Of a stretch of DNA of 22,633 nucleotides, positions 5,766-16,267 are shown piece after piece. The stretch's first letter is position 1. Every line of letters starts with the position of its first letter. Below the pieces are notes generated by a model. It worked only from the letters and a program-made list of their open reading frames with translations. It made no database searches and had not been told where the DNA came from. Location of the stretch: IMG/VR virus record IMGVR_UViG_3300042691_026310, positions 1-22,633 of that record; one strand, written 5' to 3'. Both the position numbers and the translations under genes were made by a program. This stretch comes from a virus.

Positions 5766-7786
5766 CCGGCGATCTTGAGCTTCTGCTGCCGCCTGCTGCG
5801 GCGCCCTCGATGCTGTCGCGCCTGGCCCAGGCCGTGCGGCCGCGCAAGGTGCTCACGGTCAGCGAATGGGCCGACGCAGAGCGCCGGCTCAGCTCCAAGG
5901 GCAGCGCCGAGGCCGGGCGGTGGGTCACGGCCCGTAACCCGCCGACCCGCGAGCCGATGGACGCCATGAGCCTGCGCAGCCCCGTGCGCGAGGTCGTCCT
6001 GATGTGGCCGATCCAGTTCGCCAAGACCGAGGTCGCGCTCAATGTGGTCGGCTACACGATGGACTACGCGCCAGGTCCGATCATGGTGACGCTGCCGGGC
6101 GAAGTCTCGCTGAACAAGTGGACCGCGCAGAAGCTCCACCCGATGATCGAGGAGACCCCGGCCGTGCGGCGCTCCCTGGTCAGCACCAGTAGCCGCGAGG
6201 CCAGCAACACCAGGACCTTCAAGGACTTCGCGGGCGGGCAGCTGTTCCTTGAGCACGCAGGCACCTCCACACGGCTGAAGATGACCTCGGCCCGCACGGT
6301 GATTGCCGACGAGCTCGACGAGTTCGCGGCCAACCTGCCCAGCGGAGACGATCCGGTCGAGATGCTCAACGGCCGCACGTCGGCATTCCCCAGCACCTTC
6401 AAGCGGCTGTACATCAGCAGCCCGCAGATGAAGAGCACCAGCCGCACCTGGTACCTGTGGGAGCGCAGCGACCAGCGCCACTACCACGTCGCATGCCCAC
6501 ACTGCGGCGAGCGGCAGCCGCTGGTCTGGGCCGGGCTCAAGTGGGACACGGTCGTGCACAGCTCGATTCCCCGGCGGGCCTGGTATGTCTGCCGCGACTG
6601 TGGTGGCGAGATTGAAGAGCACCACAAGACGCGCATGATCGAGCGCGGCGGCTGGGTGCCGCATGCGCCTGATGTCACGGCCCGGCGCGGCTACACCCTC
6701 AACTGCCTGTACTACCAGCTCGGGTTGGGGCCCCGCTGGGCCGATCTCGCACAGATGTGGCTGGACGCTCAGGGCGACCAGGCCCGGCTCAAGACCTTCG
6801 TCAACGACCGGTTGGCCGAGCCCTGGGAGGACAAGGGCACCGCGCACGTCCGCGCCAACATAGTGCAGGAACGTGCCGAGCCCTACGCGCTGCGCACGGC
6901 GCCGGCTGGCGTGCTGCGCATCACTGCCGGGGTCGATACGCAGGACGACCGCTTCGAGGTGCAGATCACCGGCTGGGGTCGCGGCATGAGCTTCTGGGTG
7001 CTGGACTACGTGGTCATACCCGGAGACCCTGACGCCGACACCACGCGCGCGGCTCTGACCGAGTTGCTGAACCGGCCCATTCAGCACGCGTGCGGAGCGC
7101 TGATGCAGGTCGAGGCGACTTCCGTGGACATGCTCGGGCACCGTACCGAGGCCGTGAAGGCTTGGGTGCGCAGTCGCACCGTGCGACGTCCCATGGCGAG
7201 TTTCGGGTCAACCAACAGCACAGCGCCGCTGCTGGGCAAGGCCAAGCTGCAGGACGTGACCTGGCGCGGCCAGAACGACAAGCGCGGCGTGCACAGCTAT
7301 CCCATCGGCACCGTCAACGCCAAGCACGTCCTCTTCGGCCGGCTGGCGGCCGATCACGAGGCCCAGCAGAAGTGGCTGCACACGCCTGAGCCGCAAAGGC
7401 CGGCCGCGCCTGATCGGTCGTGCCACTTCAGCGACCAGGTCCCGCCCGGGTACTTCGAAGGCCTCATCAGCGAGATCTACAACCCCAGCAAGAACCGCTT
7501 CGAAAAGCGCCGAGGCAGCGTGCGCAACGAGCCGCTGGATACCTGGGTGCACTCCTACGCGGCGGCGCACCACCCTGAGCTGCGCCTGCACCGTGCGACC
7601 CGGGCGGACTGGGATCTGTGGGAGGCCCAGTTGCTTGCTCGCGCTGCAGCCGTCCGCGAAGGGCCCGCGGGGGCAGCTTCAGATCAACCGGCGCTGATCG
7701 AAGTCCGTGCGCCAGCCGCGCCCACCGACATGCCAGCCCGCGCCTCAAGCCCTGCAGCTCCAAGATCAGGAGGCCGTCGATGGTGA
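5762..7786 (+). CDS. terminase large subunit (lambda gpA family)
   Basis: The product is 674 residues, close to the 640 of lambda gpA. It is the ATP-driven motor and nuclease that cuts concatemers and fills proheads. The GTG start overlaps the small-subunit stop by 4 bp. The Walker A-like loop is WPIQFAKTE with Lys88; Ala replaces the Gly that usually precedes the Lys. Walker B is VIADELDE (Asp183/Glu184, Asp186/Glu187). A CPHC (Cys245/248) and CRDC (Cys277/280) pair suggests the zinc knuckle known from this family. The nuclease domain follows, with an early acidic motif GVDTQDDRFE (Asp392). The last ~40 residues are Ala/Pro-rich. The end overlaps the Mor-like gene by 7 bp. Confidence 0.93.
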   Translation: MTGDLELLLPPAAAPSMLSRLAQAVRPRKVLTVSEWADAERRLSSKGSAEAGRWVTARNPPTREPMDAMSLRSPVREVVLMWPIQFAKTEVALNVVGYTMDYAPGPIMVTLPGEVSLNKWTAQKLHPMIEETPAVRRSLVSTSSREASNTRTFKDFAGGQLFLEHAGTSTRLKMTSARTVIADELDEFAANLPSGDDPVEMLNGRTSAFPSTFKRLYISSPQMKSTSRTWYLWERSDQRHYHVACPHCGERQPLVWAGLKWDTVVHSSIPRRAWYVCRDCGGEIEEHHKTRMIERGGWVPHAPDVTARRGYTLNCLYYQLGLGPRWADLAQMWLDAQGDQARLKTFVNDRLAEPWEDKGTAHVRANIVQERAEPYALRTAPAGVLRITAGVDTQDDRFEVQITGWGRGMSFWVLDYVVIPGDPDADTTRAALTELLNRPIQHACGALMQVEATSVDMLGHRTEAVKAWVRSRTVRRPMASFGSTNSTAPLLGKAKLQDVTWRGQNDKRGVHSYPIGTVNAKHVLFGRLAADHEAQQKWLHTPEPQRPAAPDRSCHFSDQVPPGYFEGLISEIYNPSKNRFEKRRGSVRNEPLDTWVHSYAAAHHPELRLHRATRADWDLWEAQLLARAAAVREGPAGAASDQPALIEVRAPAAPTDMPARASSPAAPRSGGRRW

Positions 7787-8103
7787 GCGGCAAAGTCCAG
7801 ACCGATCCGCCGCCTCTGCGCGTCATGGCGGAAGACCCCGACTTCGTCGACCGCGTGTTCGCGTACCTGGTCGAGTTGCTGCCGGAGCTTTCCAAGCGCG
7901 AGGCCGACCTCAAGTCGGCGATGCGGCAGGAGTTCGGAGGCGAGGATCATTACGTGCGCCGCAAGGGCGGCAAGCGCCAAGAGCGCGCGCAAGAGGTGCT
8001 GCGGCTGTTCAATGGCCGCAACGCGACAGAGATCGCCCGCAGGCTCGGTTGCGGGCGCGCGACGGTGTACCGCTACCTGAAGCAGGCGGGTCGTGAGAAG
8101 TGA
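7780..8103 (+). CDS. Mor-like transcription activator
   Basis: The product is 107 residues. The ATG at 7780 lies inside the end of the large terminase gene, with a perfect AGGAGG (7768-7773) six bases upstream. The layout fits the Mor/C activators of Mu-like phages: N-terminal helices for dimerisation (residues ~20-50), an EFGG turn (51-54) followed by HYVRR, then a helix-turn-helix LFNGRNATEIARRLGCGRAT running into VYRYLKQ (about 77-101). In Mu, Mor dimers bind dyads and recruit RNA polymerase to weak late promoters. The first of two 26-bp dyads begins 43 bp after this gene, which makes it the prime candidate for its binding site. A simple resolvase-type HTH protein is the main alternative. 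Confidence 0.75.
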   Translation: MVSGKVQTDPPPLRVMAEDPDFVDRVFAYLVELLPELSKREADLKSAMRQEFGGEDHYVRRKGGKRQERAQEVLRLFNGRNATEIARRLGCGRATVYRYLKQAGREK

Positions 8104-8145
8104 GCCTCGTCAATCAGCGGCCGGCGGCGAGCCCAAGTAAAAACT

Positions 8146-8171
8146 GTCTCACTCTCCCCTGCAAATGAGAC
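8146..8171 (+). promoter_or_regulatory. 26-bp dyad, copy 1, before gpW-like gene (candidate activator site)
   Basis: GTCTCA at 8146-8151 and TGAGAC at 8166-8171 are perfect inverses separated by 14 bp. The element differs from copy 2 (14095-14120) at only two of 26 positions and sits 23 bp before the ATG of the next gene, exactly as copy 2 does. A weak -10-like TAGGCT (8183-8188) lies just before the ATG. The next gene has only a poor Shine-Dalgarno, consistent with a very short leader. Confidence 0.7.
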
Positions 8172-8194
8172 GGCGTCGTCTCTAGGCTGGGTGG

Positions 8195-8416
8195 ATGGCC
8201 TACACGCAAGCGGACCTTGATGCTCTGGACGCCGCCATTCTCAATGGCGAGCTTGAGGTCCAGGAGGGCGACCGTCGCGTGCGGTATCGCTCGATCCCTG
8301 AGCTGCAGGCCGCTGCGGCGCATGTGCGATCGCGCCTGGCCGAGGCTGCTTCGGGTTCAGGGGCTTCTCGTCGCAGCGTGCGCCGCTTCGACTTCACGAC
8401 TGCACGCGGAGAGTAG
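8195..8416 (+). CDS. gpW-like head-tail joining protein
   Basis: The product is 73 residues (lambda gpW has 68). It begins MAYTQADLDALDAAILNGEL, followed by VQEGDRRVRYRSIPELQAAA, the helix-hairpin-helix order typical of gpW-like proteins, which are monomers that stabilise the packaged head and provide the site for tail attachment. Residues 50-73 are basic and Ser/Arg-rich. As in lambda, it lies between the large terminase and portal genes. The start has no clear Shine-Dalgarno, whereas the portal gene 2 bp downstream starts at a GTG with GGAG within this gene's 3' end. Confidence 0.8.
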   Translation: MAYTQADLDALDAAILNGELEVQEGDRRVRYRSIPELQAAAAHVRSRLAEAASGSGASRRSVRRFDFTTARGE

Positions 8417-8418
8417 GC

Positions 8419-9939
8419 GTGGACTCGGCCAGCGAACGCAACGCCCCCACCGCTTTGGACCGCCTGATCGGCCGGATCAGTCCGCGCTGGGGGCTGGCCC
8501 GCTACCACGACCGGCTGCGGCTGACGCGCGCCTATGAAGCCGCCGCGCCTGGCGACTCCTGGCGCCCGCGCCGTGCCGGAGCCAGCGCAAACACCGACCA
8601 CCGCGCCGATGCGGCCATCATCCGCTCCAAGGCGCGGTCGCTGGTGCAAAACGTGCCGTACATCGCGGCCGCTCTGCGCGGCCTCGTCGCCCACACCGTC
8701 GGCACCGGGATCGTCAGCTACCCCAAAACCGCCAACGACACGCTGTCGACTCTGTACGCCCGCTGGTGCGCGGAGTGCGACGCCGACGGGCAGCGCGACT
8801 GGCATGGCATCCAGGCCGCCGCGTATCGGACCATGGAGCAAGACGGCGAAGTCTTGCTGCGCCTGCGCCCCCGGCTCAGCACCGACGGGCTGGCCGTGCC
8901 ACTGCAGGTGCAGCTCCTCGAAATCGACTGGCTGGACGGCTCCAAGGGCGTGACGCCCGGCTCGCTGGCGGGCGTGGCTGAGGGCAACATGGTCGTCAAT
9001 GGCATTGAGTACGACCGGCTCGGCAAGGTCGCTGCCTACTGGCTGTACGAGGAGCACCCTGGCGAGCTGCAGGTCCGCCGCACCCTGCGCACGCTCAGCC
9101 GCCGGGTCGATGCACGCTGGATCATCCATCTCTTTGCGCCAGACCGCCCCGGCCAAGGCCGCGGCTTCAGCCGCTTCGCGCCGGTCATCTCGCGTGCTCG
9201 TGATCTCGCTCTGTACGAAGACGCTGAGCTCGCGCGCAAGAACCTGGAGTCTCGGCTCGGCGTGCTCTTGAGCGGCGACGCATCACTGCTTGGCAACGAC
9301 AACGGCGGCGCACCATCCGAGGCCGGCGGGTCCGCCAAAGACCTCGGCCAGCTGCCCAGTGGCGGCATGATGCAGGTGCCTGCTGGCGTCAACATCACGA
9401 CCGTCGCGCCCAACCCGGCACCCGGCTACGTCGACACCGTCAAGATGCAGCTGCACCTCATCGCGGCCGGCATCGGCGTCCCCATCGAGCTGATGACGGG
9501 TGACTCGCGCGAGGCGGGCAGCTTCAGCTCCGTGCGTGCGCGGCGCCAGGAGTTCCGGCTGGAGGTCGAGGCCATGCAATGGCTCACCCTGGTGCCTCGA
9601 CTGTGCGACACGGTCTGGCGCGCGTTCGTCCAGGCGGCCATCGACTCCGGCAAGCTGCGGCCCGGCTCGTACCCGGCGGACCACTCCACGCCGAAGTGGG
9701 AATACGTCAACCCGCAGCAGGACGCAGAGGCCGAGATCCGGCTGATCAGCTGCGGCCTGCTGACCATCAGCGAGAGCCTGCGCCGCCGTGGCTACAAGCC
9801 GGCGGAGGTCTTCAAGGAGTACCAGCAGGACATGGATCAACTCAAGGCCGCTGGCCTGCTCCCGATCCTGCTGACCATGCTCAAGGGCGGCAACGCCGCG
9901 CCCAGCGCGGCTGCAGCCATGGCCGACATGAACGATTGA
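8419..9939 (+). CDS. portal protein (lambda gpB family)
   Basis: The product is 506 residues (lambda gpB has 533). Twelve copies would form the ring at the head vertex through which DNA enters and leaves. The GTG start lies 2 bp after the previous stop, with GGAG (8408-8411) upstream. Family features are the N-terminal AIIRSKARSLVQNVPYIAAA (~residues 70-90), QRDWHGIQAAAYRTMEQDGE in the wing (~120), the FAPDRPGQGRGFSRFAPVI segment (~240-258) and GDSREAGSFSSVRARRQEFR in the stem-to-clip region (~362-381). The C-terminal helices carry GYKPAEVFKEYQQDMDQL. No protease gene follows, as it would in lambda; four accessory genes intervene. Confidence 0.92.
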   Translation: MDSASERNAPTALDRLIGRISPRWGLARYHDRLRLTRAYEAAAPGDSWRPRRAGASANTDHRADAAIIRSKARSLVQNVPYIAAALRGLVAHTVGTGIVSYPKTANDTLSTLYARWCAECDADGQRDWHGIQAAAYRTMEQDGEVLLRLRPRLSTDGLAVPLQVQLLEIDWLDGSKGVTPGSLAGVAEGNMVVNGIEYDRLGKVAAYWLYEEHPGELQVRRTLRTLSRRVDARWIIHLFAPDRPGQGRGFSRFAPVISRARDLALYEDAELARKNLESRLGVLLSGDASLLGNDNGGAPSEAGGSAKDLGQLPSGGMMQVPAGVNITTVAPNPAPGYVDTVKMQLHLIAAGIGVPIELMTGDSREAGSFSSVRARRQEFRLEVEAMQWLTLVPRLCDTVWRAFVQAAIDSGKLRPGSYPADHSTPKWEYVNPQQDAEAEIRLISCGLLTISESLRRRGYKPAEVFKEYQQDMDQLKAAGLLPILLTMLKGGNAAPSAAAAMADMND

Positions 9940-9962
9940 ACGGACCGCGACGCGGCAGGCCC

Positions 9963-10283
9963 ATGCTTCACACCAGCGAGTACACCTTCACCGCCCCTGG
10001 CGGCACCAGCGTTGTCCAGGAGGTTCCGGATGGCACCGTGTGGTCCGCCCAGATGACGGCAACGGCCACCGGCGCAGTGACGGCCGCAGCCGTCCTGGAG
10101 GTGACCAACACGCCCGCCAACGCCGCCAGCTGGCGGACGCTGGCGACTTTCAACCTGGCCGGCTCGCCGTCGGCCAATGACAGCGCCGTGTTCACCGCTG
10201 CCTGGAAGGCCTACCGCTGGCGCGGTACAGGCCTCACGGGCACAGGCGCCGCGGCCAGCTGCGCCGTCTGCGTGGGAGCTTGA
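9963..10283 (+). CDS. small beta-rich hypothetical protein, 106 aa
   Basis: The ATG at 9963 lies 23 bp after the portal stop. The product reads MLHTSEYTFTAPGGTSVVQE, then DGTVWSAQMTATATGAV and ends in WRGTGLTGTGAAASCAVCVG. Alternating Thr/Val/Ala strands and Gly turns suggest a beta sandwich, as in phage head decoration or fiber-like proteins. No family was recognised, and no signal peptide or membrane segment is present. It begins a four-gene block between portal and protease, and similarity in style to its neighbour suggests both are virion components or partners of the lectin-like protein. Confidence 0.65.
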   Translation: MLHTSEYTFTAPGGTSVVQEVPDGTVWSAQMTATATGAVTAAAVLEVTNTPANAASWRTLATFNLAGSPSANDSAVFTAAWKAYRWRGTGLTGTGAAASCAVCVGA

Positions 10284-10285
10284 CC

Positions 10286-10693
10286 ATGGGAATCCTCAAC
10301 CCCGATTGCATCGTCGTTGCCAGTGCGCCGGTGGGCGGCACCGCTGTGGCAGAGCAGACCATCGCCCCGGGCAGCGACGCCGTCAACGGCGTGCAGCAGG
10401 TCCGTCAGAGCTTCCAGCTCCTGGGCAAAGCCACGGCCGTGGACACCAACATCGTCGGGCGGCCGGCCTTCGTGCACGCGTTGACCTGCAGCAACCCGTC
10501 CGCCACCGCGTTCGAGGTCTATCTGTCCGATGGAACGACGGGCACCGGCGCAGACTCCGCAGGCCAGCGGTTCAACGTGCCGGCCAACAGCTCGATCACG
10601 CACATGGTCAACCGGACCTTGTTTGTGGGCGTGCGGATTCGCGGCGCGGCTGCGTTCCCTGCCGGCGCTGAGATCTCGGCGACGGGAGCCTGA
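10286..10693 (+). CDS. small beta-rich hypothetical protein, 135 aa
   Basis: The ATG at 10286 has GGGAG (10274-10278) seven bases upstream, inside the previous gene's end, and the genes are 2 bp apart. The product begins MGILNPDCIVVASAPVGGTA and contains TCSNPSATAFEVYLSDGTTG near residue 72, PANSSITHMVNRTLFVGVRI near residue 100 and a Gly/Ala-rich end. The repeated strand-turn pattern indicates a single beta sandwich; the overall look is that of phage decoration or baseplate-type modules. The family is unknown. Coupled spacing with the gene before and after (1 bp) puts it in one operon with the lectin-like protein. Confidence 0.7.
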   Translation: MGILNPDCIVVASAPVGGTAVAEQTIAPGSDAVNGVQQVRQSFQLLGKATAVDTNIVGRPAFVHALTCSNPSATAFEVYLSDGTTGTGADSAGQRFNVPANSSITHMVNRTLFVGVRIRGAAAFPAGAEISATGA

Positions 10694-10694
10694 C

Positions 10695-12014
10695 ATGCTG
10701 CGCGGCTACGGCGGCTTTCGGCACCTTCGGACCGATCACTACAGCAGCGTGCGCTTCTCCGGCGGCACGTTGTCGCACACCGGCATGCCGGCACTGCCGA
10801 CCTCGGGCCCGTACAGCATCATGGCCTGGGGTTACAGCGTCCCAGGGGTCTCGGGCACGATCTACGCTGCCGGGGGCAGTTTCGGCGTCACAAGCGCCAA
10901 CCTTCTGACTCTGACGGGCTTGCTGTCGGCCGGTGTGCCGCTGCCGCTGGGCGACTGGTGGAGCGCTGCGCTGACCTACGACGGATCGGTGAGCACTCTG
11001 TATCTGGATGGCGAGATCGTCGCCGTCACCGGCAGTCCCGGAGTCGCCTTCATGGGCGGCGCGGCCAGCAGCTTGATGGGCGCTGGCGGGGCCCTTTCGC
11101 AGCTGATCGTGACGGCCGGGGCGTGCTTCACCCAGGACCAAGTGCGCCGCTTCCATTACGAGAACGTGGAGCCGCAAGCGGACGTAAATCTGCGCATGCT
11201 TGAAGGCCTGGGCACGGCGCTTGTCAACAGCGGCCGACTCGCAGGCACTGCGCACACCATGGGGGCGAACACGAGCTGGACGCCGGACGTGCCCAAGATG
11301 CCGGCGCTTTACGCTGTGGACAGCGGCAGCATGGTGCTCGACGGCACCACCAATGGCACGCTGACGCCAAGTGCAGGCGGCCTGACGGCTCTCGCGGCCA
11401 TCTATGGGGGCCCCGGCATCACCATGGCCGCATGGATCAAGCCGCATCCTGGCAACGATGGCAGCCGGTACCCGTTGGCTCTGTCCAACGGCACCACCTT
11501 GCTGCGTGCGATCGCCGACGCGGCGGGTCTCGGCAACGTGCAGTGGGCGAACATCCGCGCCAACGTCAGCAGCGCGGTCACGAACCAGCTCGCGCGGCCG
11601 CGCGTGCCAGGGTTTGGCCGGTGGATGCGCCTGGGTGTTTCCGTCGACGTCGTCGCGGGCGTCATCGAGACGGCACTCGACCGCGTGATCCAGACGCGTG
11701 ACGTCAACGTCGCGCACGTTGCCGCCAACTGGTACTCCGGCAGCACGGTGGCAGACTTCCGAATCGGGGCCAACGCCGGCAACGGTGCTGCGAGCCAGTG
11801 GTTTGGGCGGGTGGCCGATGTCGCAATCTGGAGGCGTCCTTTCTCAAGGTCGGACTGGCTGGACGACTTCCGCGGCGTCGGGCCAGCTGCCGATGTGCGC
11901 TGGCGCTTCAGGAGCGGTTTCGGGACCGCGCTGGCCCCCAGCGAAGGTGGCATTGCGGCCAGCCTGTCGGTGGGCTCCGGCGTCACCTGGAGCGCTGAAA
12001 GCCCTCGCGCATGA
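10695..12014 (+). CDS. double lectin-like (LamG/concanavalin-like) protein
   Basis: The product is 439 residues from an ATG 1 bp after the previous stop, with GGGAG upstream. Two laminin-G/concanavalin-type jelly-roll modules can be made out. The first (~15-160) has the signature WWSAALTYDGSVSTLYLDGE, and the second (~235-395) has ITMAAWIKPHPGND, then WMRLGVSVDVV and FGRVADVAIWRRPFSRSDWL. Such domains bind polysaccharides or glycoproteins. There is no signal peptide, so a virion location (head fiber, decoration) is more likely than secretion. It overlaps the glycosidase-like gene by 4 bp (ATGA), implying that binding and cleavage act on the same glycan. Family assignment is by pattern only. 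Confidence 0.65.
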   Translation: MLRGYGGFRHLRTDHYSSVRFSGGTLSHTGMPALPTSGPYSIMAWGYSVPGVSGTIYAAGGSFGVTSANLLTLTGLLSAGVPLPLGDWWSAALTYDGSVSTLYLDGEIVAVTGSPGVAFMGGAASSLMGAGGALSQLIVTAGACFTQDQVRRFHYENVEPQADVNLRMLEGLGTALVNSGRLAGTAHTMGANTSWTPDVPKMPALYAVDSGSMVLDGTTNGTLTPSAGGLTALAAIYGGPGITMAAWIKPHPGNDGSRYPLALSNGTTLLRAIADAAGLGNVQWANIRANVSSAVTNQLARPRVPGFGRWMRLGVSVDVVAGVIETALDRVIQTRDVNVAHVAANWYSGSTVADFRIGANAGNGAASQWFGRVADVAIWRRPFSRSDWLDDFRGVGPAADVRWRFRSGFGTALAPSEGGIAASLSVGSGVTWSAESPRA

Positions 12015-14068
12015 TCGCGCGCGACGCCATCCGCCTGATGGTGCCTCCCGGCAAGGGGGGCACGTTCCACCCTCAGCAGGTCTACCAGCCGTTCGCCCGC
12101 GTCACCGAGGCCGGCTACTCGTCCTGGGTCTACAAGGGGGGGCCTCGCCTGGCGCCGACGTACACCGGCGACTGGGACATCCCGCGCCGGTATCCGTTCC
12201 TCGAGCGCAGTCAGTGGCAGTTCGACACCGCCCACATGGCCGAGCAGCGCACCACGTTGCGCAATCTTCGTGTGGTCGGCGGCGTGGTCGGCGGCCTGGT
12301 GTCGCCGGCCACCTTGGCGCTCAATCCTGGGTACGGCGTCAAGACCCTGTACGGTGCCAACTGCATACCGCCGCTGGACGTGTTTGGCTACTGCGACTAC
12401 GGCTCGCCGGTGGACCGCCAGCGCCAGCTGTACGCGACCGAACCGCCGCTCACCGAGAGCCAGCGCGGCACCGCCTTCTGGCTGGGCCAGGGCAACAGCA
12501 TCCACTACGACGACTTCACCACCTGCGCGACGCTCTGGTTCTATGGCGGGGGCTTCGGCACGGAAGTGGAGCAGTCGTTCTCGGTGCCCAACTACGGCGC
12601 CTTGCTCAGATCCCAGTACGCCAACGACGCGGCCTATCTTGCGGCCTCGACATCGCAGACCCGGGCAAACCACCCGCCGCATGACCAGGCCTGGCGCCGG
12701 CACATGCTGCGCTACTGTCTTGACCACGCGCTGCAACGCGTGCGCCCAATGCACCTGGCCGCAGGCATCGAAAGCAGCTACAACGGTTTCGCCGCCATCC
12801 CGAGCACCTGGGGCGCGCTGTGCAATGTCCCGGTCGGGGCTTCGGCGTTCGACAACCTGATCGTCGAACTCAACCCCGCCGACACCGAGCCGGTGGCCGG
12901 CTATCAGCTCGGGCACGACCTCGCGGACACCACCCGGCTGCTCACCTGGTTCGCCCGCGTGCAGCTGGCCTGCGCGACGGTGCGCGCCTTCGGCGCCAAG
13001 GCCACAGTCGCGCCATACCCGTACATCCGGGCCGTGCCGCCCAACACCCAAGGCGACCGCTTCAGCACCTTTGCCGTGGTGCCGCCCACCTTCGACGACT
13101 TCCCGCCGACAGCGTCCACCTACACGGAGCCGGTGACCGTGGCGGCCAACTACCGCGTCACCTGCGCGTGGGCTCTGGCCAACGGGTGCATGCCCACGGT
13201 GCCGATTCAGGTCTTTGACTACATCACCAACTTCCTGACGGGCTGGCAGTCCGGCAATCGCTGGCAGTGGACGGCTGACCCGGTCGACTTCCAGCCGCTG
13301 TTTGACTGGATCGGCATGCACCGCGCCGTCCTGTTCGACGGCTTCGACACGCCTCCGCAGATCGCTCTGGCAGTGCCGGATCTCGACGAGCGCTACAGCA
13401 ACAGCACGAGCGACAGCCTGAGCAGCAGCACCAACTCCTGGGTCGGTGCTTACGAGGTAGAGGTCGGACCTGGCTGGGACATCAACCGCCTCAAGCGCTA
13501 CAGCCGCGACATCGTCGCGCCACTCATGACGCGGGGCCTGCCCTGGATGCTGTCGCTGCTGGGCCCAGGCCTGGACGCGACGCGAACAGCCGCCCAGTAT
13601 CCGTTCGCCGACATGGATGCGGTCATCAAGACCGAGCCCGATGCCACCTACACCCAAAGCGGCGCGGCCGTACCGGCAGGCGGCAACGTGCAGGCCCGGG
13701 CGTGGCTTACGGGCACGAACCTCGACCCACTGCGCACCGTCGTCGTCAATGGCGCAAGCGATGCGACCCGACCCACCCTGGCCAGTCTGCGCGCCCACCC
13801 GGATGGCCGCGTGGCCGTGCACCTGGTCAACACCAACAACTGCACCTATGGCACAGCGCCCAGCTACACCGGCGCGCAGGTCAACGCTCGCCAGTCGCAG
13901 CTCCGCCTTCGCATCCGGCAGGACGTGCTGGGCTCCGCGACAAAGGCGCACTGGTACGAGCCCGGCCAGGTGGGTGGGCGGCCATTGCGCGTGGACCGCG
14001 AGCCGGGCTGGGTCGAGCTGACGCTGCCCGGGCTGATGGACAACGCCGTCGTATTGCTCTCGCCGTGA
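12011..14068 (+). CDS. glycoside-hydrolase-like protein, 685 aa
   Basis: The start overlaps the lectin-like gene's stop (ATGA). I see a large alpha/beta central part, with GTAFWLGQGNSIHYDDFTTC (~residue 155), MHLAAGIESSYNGFAAIPST (~250), a helix-strand run to ~370, and then CAWALANGCMPTVPIQVFDY (~385) and WIGMHRAVLFDGFDTPPQIA (~435). That order resembles TIM-barrel glycosidases of the GH42-like kind. Residues ~590-685 (GRVAVHLVNTNNCTYG to LPGLMDNAVVLL) look like the small beta-sandwich that closes many such enzymes. Candidate acids (Glu253, Asp near 436) are not proven. No signal peptide is present. A depolymerase carried on the virion, or a host-surface modifier, would fit. The specific family is unknown. 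Confidence 0.55.
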   Translation: MIARDAIRLMVPPGKGGTFHPQQVYQPFARVTEAGYSSWVYKGGPRLAPTYTGDWDIPRRYPFLERSQWQFDTAHMAEQRTTLRNLRVVGGVVGGLVSPATLALNPGYGVKTLYGANCIPPLDVFGYCDYGSPVDRQRQLYATEPPLTESQRGTAFWLGQGNSIHYDDFTTCATLWFYGGGFGTEVEQSFSVPNYGALLRSQYANDAAYLAASTSQTRANHPPHDQAWRRHMLRYCLDHALQRVRPMHLAAGIESSYNGFAAIPSTWGALCNVPVGASAFDNLIVELNPADTEPVAGYQLGHDLADTTRLLTWFARVQLACATVRAFGAKATVAPYPYIRAVPPNTQGDRFSTFAVVPPTFDDFPPTASTYTEPVTVAANYRVTCAWALANGCMPTVPIQVFDYITNFLTGWQSGNRWQWTADPVDFQPLFDWIGMHRAVLFDGFDTPPQIALAVPDLDERYSNSTSDSLSSSTNSWVGAYEVEVGPGWDINRLKRYSRDIVAPLMTRGLPWMLSLLGPGLDATRTAAQYPFADMDAVIKTEPDATYTQSGAAVPAGGNVQARAWLTGTNLDPLRTVVVNGASDATRPTLASLRAHPDGRVAVHLVNTNNCTYGTAPSYTGAQVNARQSQLRLRIRQDVLGSATKAHWYEPGQVGGRPLRVDREPGWVELTLPGLMDNAVVLLSP

Positions 14069-14073
14069 CACGC

Positions 14074-14087
14074 CGCGGCTTGCCGCG
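14074..14087. terminator. GC hairpin after the glycosidase-like gene (weak terminator-like)
   Basis: CGCGGC (14074-14079) and GCCGCG (14082-14087) form a perfect 6-bp stem with a 2-nt gap, 5 bp after the stop codon. No T-run follows, so it is not a canonical intrinsic terminator, but it may slow or protect the upstream transcript end just before the second dyad. Confidence 0.3.
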
Positions 14088-14094
14088 CGAAATC

Positions 14095-14120
14095 GTCTCA
14101 GTTTCCCCTGCAAATGAGAC
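14095..14120 (+). promoter_or_regulatory. 26-bp dyad, copy 2, before protease-capsid gene (candidate activator site)
   Basis: GTCTCA at 14095-14100 and TGAGAC at 14115-14120 are perfect inverses separated by 14 bp. Twenty-four of 26 bases match copy 1 at 8146-8171, and the 23-bp distance to the start codon (14144) is identical. The leader sequences between dyad and ATG differ, so the dyad and its spacing have been kept rather than the whole region. A weak -10-like CACGAT lies near 14132-14137. Confidence 0.7.
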
Positions 14121-14143
14121 AGCCGAGCCGACACGATGGCGCC

Positions 14144-16267
14144 ATGCCGGACACCACAAGTTCCACGCCAGCCGATCAACGGCCCTCGGCATTGCCGCTG
14201 CAGATGCGCGAGGCTCGGATCGAGCCCAGCACATTCAACGCAGACCGCAATAGCGTCGAGGTGGTGTGGACGACCGGCGCCCGCGTCCGCCGGTACGACT
14301 GGGAGAGCGGCCGGGTCTACGAAGAGGAGCTCGTCGTCTCTCCCGAGACGGTCGACATGTCGCGCTTCGAGGCCCGCAGCGTGCAGGTCCTGGATGCGCA
14401 CCGCACGTATGGCGGCGTCGACGCCATCCTCGGCATTGCAGAGCGCGGCTGGCTTGCCGACGGCCAAGGCATTGCCGAGATCAGGCTGACGCAGCGCCCT
14501 GACCGGGCCGGCATCGTCCAGGACATCCGGGCCGGGATCATTCGCGACATCAGCTTCGGGTACTCGGTGCAGCGCTACGAGATCGTGCGCGCCCAAGACC
14601 GTACCGACGGCGTCAACGCCGACCTGTGGCGTGCCGTGAGGTGGCAGCCGCAGGAGATCAGTTTTGTCCCCGTGAACGCGGACATGGGCGCCAGCTCGCG
14701 CTCTGCGCCTGACGCTGGCAGTGCCCGCTTCCCGATCACCTTCATCCGCGCCGGCGGTTCACCGGCAACGCAACCCCAGGAGCATCAGATGCCCGCAGCT
14801 CAGACCGCCGCCGCGAGCGGCTTGCCCGCCGACCCCGCAGCCGGCGGCGCTGGTGCCCCCGCGCACACGCAGGAACCCCAGTCGCGCGCCGCGCCCAGCG
14901 GCGCCCAGGCCGGCGGCCCCGCTGCCGGTGGCGCTGCAATGGTCGTCGACGTCGCCCAACGTGCCCGCGAGGAAGAGCAGATCCGCGCCGCAGACATCAC
15001 CTCGCTGTGCGAGCGTGCTGGCCTCGCCGGTCTTGCTTCCCAGCTGATTCGCAGCGGCTCGACCCTGCAGCAGGCGCAGGACCAGGTGATCAATCAGCTG
15101 GCCCGCAACGACGCTGCCAGCGGTGGGCACCAGAACGTGCGCGGCATCCAGACCGTGCGCGACGAGCAGGAAACCCTGCTCCGCGGTTACGAAGAGGTGC
15201 TGATGCACCGCGTCAACCCGCGCGAGAAGATCACCGACAACGGCCGCCGCTTCCGCAGCATGTCGCTGCTTCAGATGGGCGTGGACTACCTGCTGGCGCG
15301 CGGGCTTGATGTCCGCGATCGCCCGCGAATGGAGCAGGCCGGCGCGATGCTGCACTTCCGCAGTGGCATGGGCGGGCTGCACACCACGAGCGACTTCGCG
15401 AATCTGCTGGCCAACGTGGCCACCAAGCGTCTGCGCATGGGCTACGACGAGAATCCGGGCACCTACCGGCAGTGGGCCCGCCGCGCCCCGAACTTGCCCG
15501 ACTTCAAGGAAGTCACCGTCGCGCAACTGGGTGCCATGCCTGATCTGCTGCGTGTCAACGAGGCGGGCGAGTTCAAGTACGGCACCTTTGGTGACGGCGG
15601 TGAGCGCTATCAGCTGATCAGCTACGGCCGCATTGTCCCGTTGAATCGCCAAGCCATCGTCAACGACGATCTGCGCGGCTTCGACCGCATCGTCAGCGGC
15701 TTCGGTGGCGCTGCGTCTCGGCTGGAGAACCGGCTCGTGTACGCCCAGCTCACCAGCAACCCGACCATGAGCGACACCGTGGCGCTGTTTGCAGCCGGCC
15801 ACGGCAACAACGGCACCGGTGGTGGCAGTGCGCTGCAGCTCAGTGCGCTGACGGCCATGCGCACCGCCATGCGGGTGCAGAAGGGCCTGGCATCGGAAGA
15901 ACTCAACCTGATGCCGGCGTTCCTGATCGTGCCGGCGGCGCTGGAGCAGCTGGCCTACCAGTTGACCAGCAGCAACTTCGTGCCGGCGCAGCCCAGCAAC
16001 GTCAACGAGTTCCGCACCGGTGGCCGCACGGCACTCGAGCCCATCGTCGAGCCGGTGCTGGACGCCAGCAGCGCTGCCACCTGGTACGCCGCGGCAAGCA
16101 ACAGCCAGGTCGACACGGTCGAATTCGCCTACCTGGACGGCGGCGAAGGCCCGGTCATCGAAACCGAAGTCGGTTTTGACGTTGACGGCGTCAGCTTCAA
16201 GTGCCGCGAAGACTTTGCGGCCAAGGCGCTGGACTGGCGCGGTCTGTACCGCGGCGTCGGCTCCTGA
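14144..16267 (+). CDS. prohead protease / major capsid protein fusion
   Basis: The product is 707 residues. Residues 1-~200 are an HK97-type (S78/U35-like) prohead protease with a catalytic His86 (QVLDAHRTYGG) and Ser137 (RDISFGYS). An Ala/Pro/Gly-rich linker (~205-265) leads to a charged helical segment (~270-345, REEEQIRAADITSLCERAGL and LRGYEEVLMH) that would act as scaffold, and then to an HK97-fold capsid (~350-707). Fused protease-capsid proteins are an established family. I chose ATG 14144 rather than 14114: the earlier ATG is part of the dyad, and the same ATG in copy 1 reads into a stop after six codons. This start lacks a Shine-Dalgarno, while an internal ATG at 14789 has a strong one. 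Confidence 0.9.
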   Translation: MPDTTSSTPADQRPSALPLQMREARIEPSTFNADRNSVEVVWTTGARVRRYDWESGRVYEEELVVSPETVDMSRFEARSVQVLDAHRTYGGVDAILGIAERGWLADGQGIAEIRLTQRPDRAGIVQDIRAGIIRDISFGYSVQRYEIVRAQDRTDGVNADLWRAVRWQPQEISFVPVNADMGASSRSAPDAGSARFPITFIRAGGSPATQPQEHQMPAAQTAAASGLPADPAAGGAGAPAHTQEPQSRAAPSGAQAGGPAAGGAAMVVDVAQRAREEEQIRAADITSLCERAGLAGLASQLIRSGSTLQQAQDQVINQLARNDAASGGHQNVRGIQTVRDEQETLLRGYEEVLMHRVNPREKITDNGRRFRSMSLLQMGVDYLLARGLDVRDRPRMEQAGAMLHFRSGMGGLHTTSDFANLLANVATKRLRMGYDENPGTYRQWARRAPNLPDFKEVTVAQLGAMPDLLRVNEAGEFKYGTFGDGGERYQLISYGRIVPLNRQAIVNDDLRGFDRIVSGFGGAASRLENRLVYAQLTSNPTMSDTVALFAAGHGNNGTGGGSALQLSALTAMRTAMRVQKGLASEELNLMPAFLIVPAALEQLAYQLTSSNFVPAQPSNVNEFRTGGRTALEPIVEPVLDASSAATWYAAASNSQVDTVEFAYLDGGEGPVIETEVGFDVDGVSFKCREDFAAKALDWRGLYRGVGS
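14789..16267 (+). CDS. nested scaffold-capsid product from internal start (proposed)
   Basis: An in-frame ATG (codon 216 of the fusion) follows AGGAG (14778-14782) with six bases between. It would make a 492-residue protein, MPAAQTAAASGLPADPAAGG onward: linker, scaffold-like helical part and capsid, without protease. Lambda uses the same trick, expressing scaffold Nu3 from inside the protease gene. Because the upstream ATG has no Shine-Dalgarno, this start could supply most of the capsid and leave protease as a minor product, the ratio that head assembly needs. The alternative is that the capsid is released only by cleavage of the fusion. Confidence 0.6.
   Translation: MPAAQTAAASGLPADPAAGGAGAPAHTQEPQSRAAPSGAQAGGPAAGGAAMVVDVAQRAREEEQIRAADITSLCERAGLAGLASQLIRSGSTLQQAQDQVINQLARNDAASGGHQNVRGIQTVRDEQETLLRGYEEVLMHRVNPREKITDNGRRFRSMSLLQMGVDYLLARGLDVRDRPRMEQAGAMLHFRSGMGGLHTTSDFANLLANVATKRLRMGYDENPGTYRQWARRAPNLPDFKEVTVAQLGAMPDLLRVNEAGEFKYGTFGDGGERYQLISYGRIVPLNRQAIVNDDLRGFDRIVSGFGGAASRLENRLVYAQLTSNPTMSDTVALFAAGHGNNGTGGGSALQLSALTAMRTAMRVQKGLASEELNLMPAFLIVPAALEQLAYQLTSSNFVPAQPSNVNEFRTGGRTALEPIVEPVLDASSAATWYAAASNSQVDTVEFAYLDGGEGPVIETEVGFDVDGVSFKCREDFAAKALDWRGLYRGVGS

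Follow-up and report, generated by a model that had tools for sequence, protein, structure and literature searches.

The locus raises the question of what two nearly identical palindromes are doing in front of two separate head gene operons of one phage. In the window (the whole 22,633-nt stretch of viral DNA analyzed here), GTCTCA-N14-TGAGAC occurs at positions 8146 to 8171 and 14095 to 14120, with perfect 6-bp arms in both copies, 12 of the 14 interior bases common to both, and 24 of the 26 bases identical overall. Each copy ends exactly 23 nt before an ATG, that of a gpW gene at 8195 or that of a capsid gene at 14144, and the first copy begins 42 nt after the end of a small regulator gene at 8103. 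No third copy is present in the 22,633 nt, and our scan of the window confirms the coordinates, the identity, and the absence of a third copy given in the first-pass annotation. Two perfect dyads that also share 12 of 14 interior bases are far from chance. By sequence comparison, these 26-base palindromes are very probably binding sites, inside two promoters (P1 and P2), of the small Mor-like activator encoded next to them; these promoters are the only ones of this type in the 22.6-kb record.

Degenerate matches in the window are of little help. The only other place with no more than 3 mismatches among the 12 arm bases is at 9249 (3 mismatches), and arms-only matches at this threshold number 3, against a shuffle mean of 7.6, which makes them rarer than chance. 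The arms-only pattern with 3 mismatches was therefore dropped as uninformative. Since arms alone with mismatches are no evidence, we turned to relatives, using the 107-amino-acid (aa) regulator (7780 to 8103) as the query and collecting viral contigs along with a few bacterial ones (a Rubrivivax metagenome-assembled genome [MAG] with an identical protein, Massilia, Undibacterium, Variovorax, and an Acidovorax MAG). In most relatives, the DNA 3′ of the regulator stop codon contains a dyad, often overlapping the stop. Paired dyads were then sought at each locus with the arm sequence left free in order to avoid bias, and the same two positions were recovered in most of the related phages, before gpW and before the protease-capsid gene. 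As a sequence-based test of the reality of the dyads, we consider this search conclusive.

A dyad is found upstream of gpW in 177/180 loci (122 unique sites) and upstream of the protease-capsid gene in 140/141 (94 unique sites), where the locus counts include duplicates and the genes were located by profile. The three loci without a P1 dyad in the scan are L108, which was missed by the interior filter only, L154, which has none, and L078, which has no P1 site. In six loci (L007, L019, L029, L055, L058, and L115), extra DNA separates the regulator gene from gpW, and the dyad stays by gpW, not by the regulator gene. The module is present in more than 100 phages, whose known hosts are Burkholderiales. 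Among INPHARED phages, no match was obtained with the window regulator as the query, and with that of one relative the only matches were to Mu-like Mor proteins. Across 399 Burkholderiales genomes surveyed, there were six Mor-like matches, four of them distant and with no dyads within the approximately 3 kb examined. The system is thus mostly seen in viral contigs, and a literature search found no description of the GTCTCA-N14-TGAGAC dyad.

The distance between P1 and P2 is short (approximately gpW-portal only) in 52/89 phages and 2.4 to 7.5 kb in the other 37, indicating a common place of insertion just upstream of P2. In the window, the genes inserted between portal and P2 occupy 9939 to 14068 and include one with a laminin-G/concanavalin-like domain (10692 to 12014) and one encoding a 685-aa protein with no family match (12011 to 14068).

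The regulator gene (7780 to 8103, + strand) stands at the end of the terminase operon, its start overlapping the end of terL by 7 nt, and it is the only Mor-like gene found between terL and gpW. The window protein matches Pfam Mor (PF08765) at 3.2e-5 and 24.3 bits, 0.6 bit under the cut-off of 24.9, and the same family is matched in 39/45 relatives (best, 3.9e-10). It also matches a PHROG of late transcriptional activators (7.3e-7), a profile comparison with the Mor structure 1rr7 gives 3.3e-5, and alignment with Mor and C places FNGRN in the C-terminal helix-turn-helix. The top Protein Data Bank entries in a fold search, at modest similarity, are 1rr7 and 9l0x (Mu C). An AlphaFold monomer model (pLDDT, 80; pTM, 0.42) has 1rr7 as its best match (TM score, 0.41 to 0.46; root mean square deviation, 8.8); the protein may have a Mor-type N-terminal dimerization domain. 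A resolvase-type helix-turn-helix is also matched. Homology therefore identifies the protein as a divergent member of the Mor/C family, in keeping with the Mor-like identity first assigned to it.

The promoters share one order of elements: an A-tract, the left arm, TTTTCC with a degenerate −35-like hexamer, the right arm, 11 nt, an nAnnnT −10 box, about 6 to 8 nt, and the ATG. At P1 (+ strand), these are an A-tract at 8139 to 8143 that adjoins the left arm like a proximal UP subsite, arms at 8146 to 8151 (GTCTCA) and 8166 to 8171 (TGAGAC), the hexamer TGCAAA at 8160 to 8165, and the −10 box TAGGCT at 8183 to 8188. At P2 (+ strand), a short A-tract (14090 to 14092) adjoins arms at 14095 to 14100 (GTCTCA) and 14115 to 14120 (TGAGAC), and the −10 box is CACGAT at 14132 to 14137. 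Counted from the right arm, the −10 box spans +12 to +17, and its composition is T 93%, A 100%, three free positions, and T 100% at the 122 unique P1 sites and C 68%, A 99%, three free positions, and T 100% at the 94 unique P2 sites, although neither this A nor this T played any part in the search for or selection of sites. Relative to the left arm, position −5 holds an A at 93% of unique P1 sites and 100% of unique P2 sites. Whereas the −10 is invariant, a proper −35 is lacking: the hexamer lying 17 bp 5′ of the −10 box matches TTGACA at 3 to 4 of 6 positions in 97/127 unique operators. Some factor-independent activity is possible with such a hexamer, and the placement of the A-tract is only suggestive of RNA polymerase contact via the alpha and sigma C-terminal domains.

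The dyads total 25 to 28 bp and are centered at about −36, with arms at about −48 and −24 and the downstream arm ending at −24. The first-pass annotation had treated the interior as 14 arbitrary bases; the length is correct for the window, but the sequence is partly conserved (TTTTCC...GAAA), being T-rich and then CC at the left and GAAA at the right. Likewise, GTCTCA and its spacer describe the window but are not fixed across phages, as both vary. The spacer ranges from 13 to 16 bp and has the same length at both P1 and P2 within a given phage in 88/89 cases. Across this range, the arms would rotate relative to each other by as much as about 100 degrees of helical phase; a rigid dimer could not accommodate such a shift across the family, which counts against the explanation that we prefer. 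As a separate observation, three entries for Mu C and Mor (9l0x, 9l0y, and 9vw8) each contain four activator chains, which may bear on the binding of wide, variably spaced dyads.

The variation of the arms follows that of the regulator. The helix presumed to read DNA has the form S/G/H-R-A/T/R/V-TVYR (C-G-R-A-T-V-Y-R in the window), and the class of this helix agrees with that of the arms in every distinct regulator (124/124): S/G-R-A/S goes with GTCTCA, H-R-x with GTCGCA, G-R-T with GT[C/T/A]CCA, S-R/K-R with GTG[A/C/T]CA, x-x-V with GTTTCA, and S-L-A with TTCTCA. On a tree built without the recognition-helix residues, there are at least 16 changes, and the 23 nonstandard regulators fall into 17 groups; in 5,000 simulations of independent evolution, at most 12 of these 23 cases were matched (mean, 1.8). 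The classes were defined after inspection of the data, and the rule was then written down before new loci were added. Five new regulators (L303, L310, L311, L317, and L338), four of them independent, fit the rule, in a held-out set that is small and in which L317 shares 99% identity with a regulator already known and L338 has an unseen residue that falls under the default rule. Arm mismatches in the G-R-T and S-R-R classes occur only at the position that the class tolerates (base 3, as C, T, or A, and base 4, respectively), and of all 20 arm mismatches, 17 would not pair in RNA, indicating that the arms obey the protein and not each other. That helix residues and operator arms change together is thus shown computationally, and it supports, at the level of predicted recognition, the idea of a new dyad specificity for a Mor-like regulator.

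The genes downstream of the dyads form a small set. P1 precedes a gpW-like head-tail adaptor Ad1 gene (8195 to 8416; PHROG 2545, 2.2e-22) and a lambda family portal gene (8419 to 9939; PF05136, 4.6e-81), and P2 precedes a gene for a fused protease-major capsid protein (14144 to 16267; PHROG 4523, 1.2e-207; PF25209, 5e-55), all on the + strand. A search by DNA alone returned 128 sites: 70 before capsid genes, 49 before gpW, six before holin genes, and two before excisionase-like genes, with one more (L268) assigned to gpW by inspection. The restriction of targets among these 128 sites to gpW, capsid, holin, and excisionase-like genes agrees with the compact late regulon that had been predicted. 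Where more than 3 kb of upstream sequence was available, all 30 P1 sites from this search had the regulator upstream, so that a dyad kept with the regulator lost, the case named in advance as contrary, was seen in 0/30. Of 23 long records, most contain two exact matches to the promoter pattern, a few contain three, and a reversed control pattern matches in none. The further copies before holin genes (L214:10658, L250:11200, L285, L289, L195, and L260) have a short predicted leader. In L203 and L248, a dyad promoter precedes AlpA/excisionase-like genes, which suggests that excision could also fall under the activator in some phages.

With the T of the −10 box set as −7, the A of the ATG of both the gpW-like and the capsid gene falls at the predicted +1. 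By −10 spacing, 80/122 P1 sites (about two thirds) and 86/86 P2 sites are predicted to be leaderless. The ATG lies 23 to 27 nt past the arm at 77/122 P1 sites and 23 to 25 nt past it at 73/86 P2 sites; the other 3 P1 and 13 P2 sites classed as leaderless were included on the basis of an earlier in-frame ATG that precedes the predicted start, and capsid starts were taken from the first in-frame ATG. Start codons in this group are ATG in 165/166 cases, and Shine-Dalgarno-like motifs occur in 2/80 P1 and 0/86 P2 cases (2/166 together), compared with 17/42 leadered P1 genes, 35/104 portal genes, and 15% of shuffles. With start codons at +1 to +3, the mRNAs from P2 and about two thirds of those from P1 should be leaderless, and the placement of the promoter implies that the capsid mRNA should start right at its AUG.

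Perfect inverted repeats near two start codons might also act in RNA: read-through mRNA could fold there into a 6-bp hairpin and so control translation or termination at gpW and capsid. However, given the fixed −10 box downstream, a transcript from this promoter would not include the dyad, the mismatches described above are mostly nonpairing, each arm tracks the helix class independently, and the 13- to 16-nt loop is itself conserved in sequence; we reject the hairpin as very improbable. Recombination between the dyads, swapping the portal-capsid segment, has in its favor the resolvase-type helix-turn-helix and, in the window, direct copies flanking a variable segment. The protein lacks a catalytic domain, however, the fixed spacing to the −10 and ATG would go unexplained, and the segment between the sites is short in 52/89 phages, so this reading was also rejected and is the least credible of all.

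The same protein and sites could instead serve repression, with binding over −48 to −24 blocking RNA polymerase until late; the dyad does span the −35 region, and a degenerate −35 is present. Against this, activation is the role of both Mor and C (PMC4287176, PMC4461284), the promoter has a poor core, an A-tract stands where Mu Pm carries an UP subsite (PMC4390567), and the regulator gene lies just upstream of the head genes in the same direction. Repression is thus unlikely, if less so than the hairpin. We are confident in a phage-specific late switch in which the Mor-like activator acts on P1 and P2. The first-pass proposal of such an activator for a late regulon is supported by homology, the helix-arm match, the −10 fixed 11 nt past the dyad, the target set, and the 0/30 result.

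What was computed is how the promoters are built, their linkage to the regulator, and the correspondence between helix and operator; we infer that the protein physically binds, that it activates and does not repress, that it acts late, and that the RNA ends are leaderless. Expression of the terminase operon would yield the activator from its last gene, and its helix-turn-helix would bind both half-sites of the 25- to 28-bp dyad. Binding would turn on two otherwise weak sigma70-type promoters, P1 for gpW-portal and P2 for protease-capsid onward, and in some relatives the holin copy as well. The arms at about −48 and −24 would flank the poor −35 element, the A-tract at about −55 to −50 would probably receive the alpha C-terminal domain of RNA polymerase, and the −10 box with its invariant A−11 and T−7 would follow. 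Start codons would lie at +1 to +3 at P2, as they would at P1 in about two thirds of the phages, and the head genes would then be made.

Detailed knowledge of Mor/C activators comes mainly from Mu. This large family may serve as a natural experiment with many independent specificity changes, each matching a helix residue to an operator base; recognition by Mor-type proteins would thereby become predictable, and the late-promoter signature could be used to annotate uncultivated phages. Leaderless mRNA is usually thought inefficient in Gram-negative bacteria, and these promoters suggest that an abundant late protein, the capsid, comes from one. We lean slightly toward a distinct Mor-like architecture, with an activator that straddles the −35 region on arms at −48 and −24, a spacer evolving with the regulator, a three-residue helix code, leaderless head mRNAs, and capsid synthesis dependent on leaderless initiation.

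Among known systems, Stenotrophomonas phage S1 is the nearest named phage and has a small helix-turn-helix gene (gp5) between terL and gpW, but its helix differs, and neither the gpW nor the capsid genes of S1 are preceded by such a dyad. gp5 (L188, 2358 to 2678) is annotated “putative peptidase a” but resembles a small helix-turn-helix protein and occupies the position of the activator, and it is probably misannotated. As with Mu C, which serves several late promoters (Plys, PI, PP, and Pmom), including those for head and lysis functions (PMC4461284), one regulator is linked to several targets here (gpW, capsid, and sometimes holin). However, Mu has separate Mor and C proteins, whereas a single Mor-like gene is found at this place, and the arm sequence and geometry differ. 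The resemblance to Mu Mor and Pm includes the FNGRN helix-turn-helix homology, a dyad over the −35 region with a recognizable −10 and, immediately 5′ of the dyad, an A-rich element (PMC4390567, PMC4287176), and a regulator gene a short distance ahead of its presumed targets. The comparison with Mu made at the outset thus stands for a Mor/C-type activator on a dyad but not for the geometry. The Mu Mor site is 16 bp (5-bp arms and a 6-bp spacer) centered at −43.5, with the proximal UP subsite at −57 to −52 (PMC4390567), values that are the published geometry of Pm and not a condition of the Pfam family. In contrast, the sites described here are 25 to 28 bp, with 6-bp arms of a different sequence, a 13- to 16-bp spacer, a center near −36, and a downstream arm reaching −24, and they lie at two or more promoters with predicted leaderless starts.
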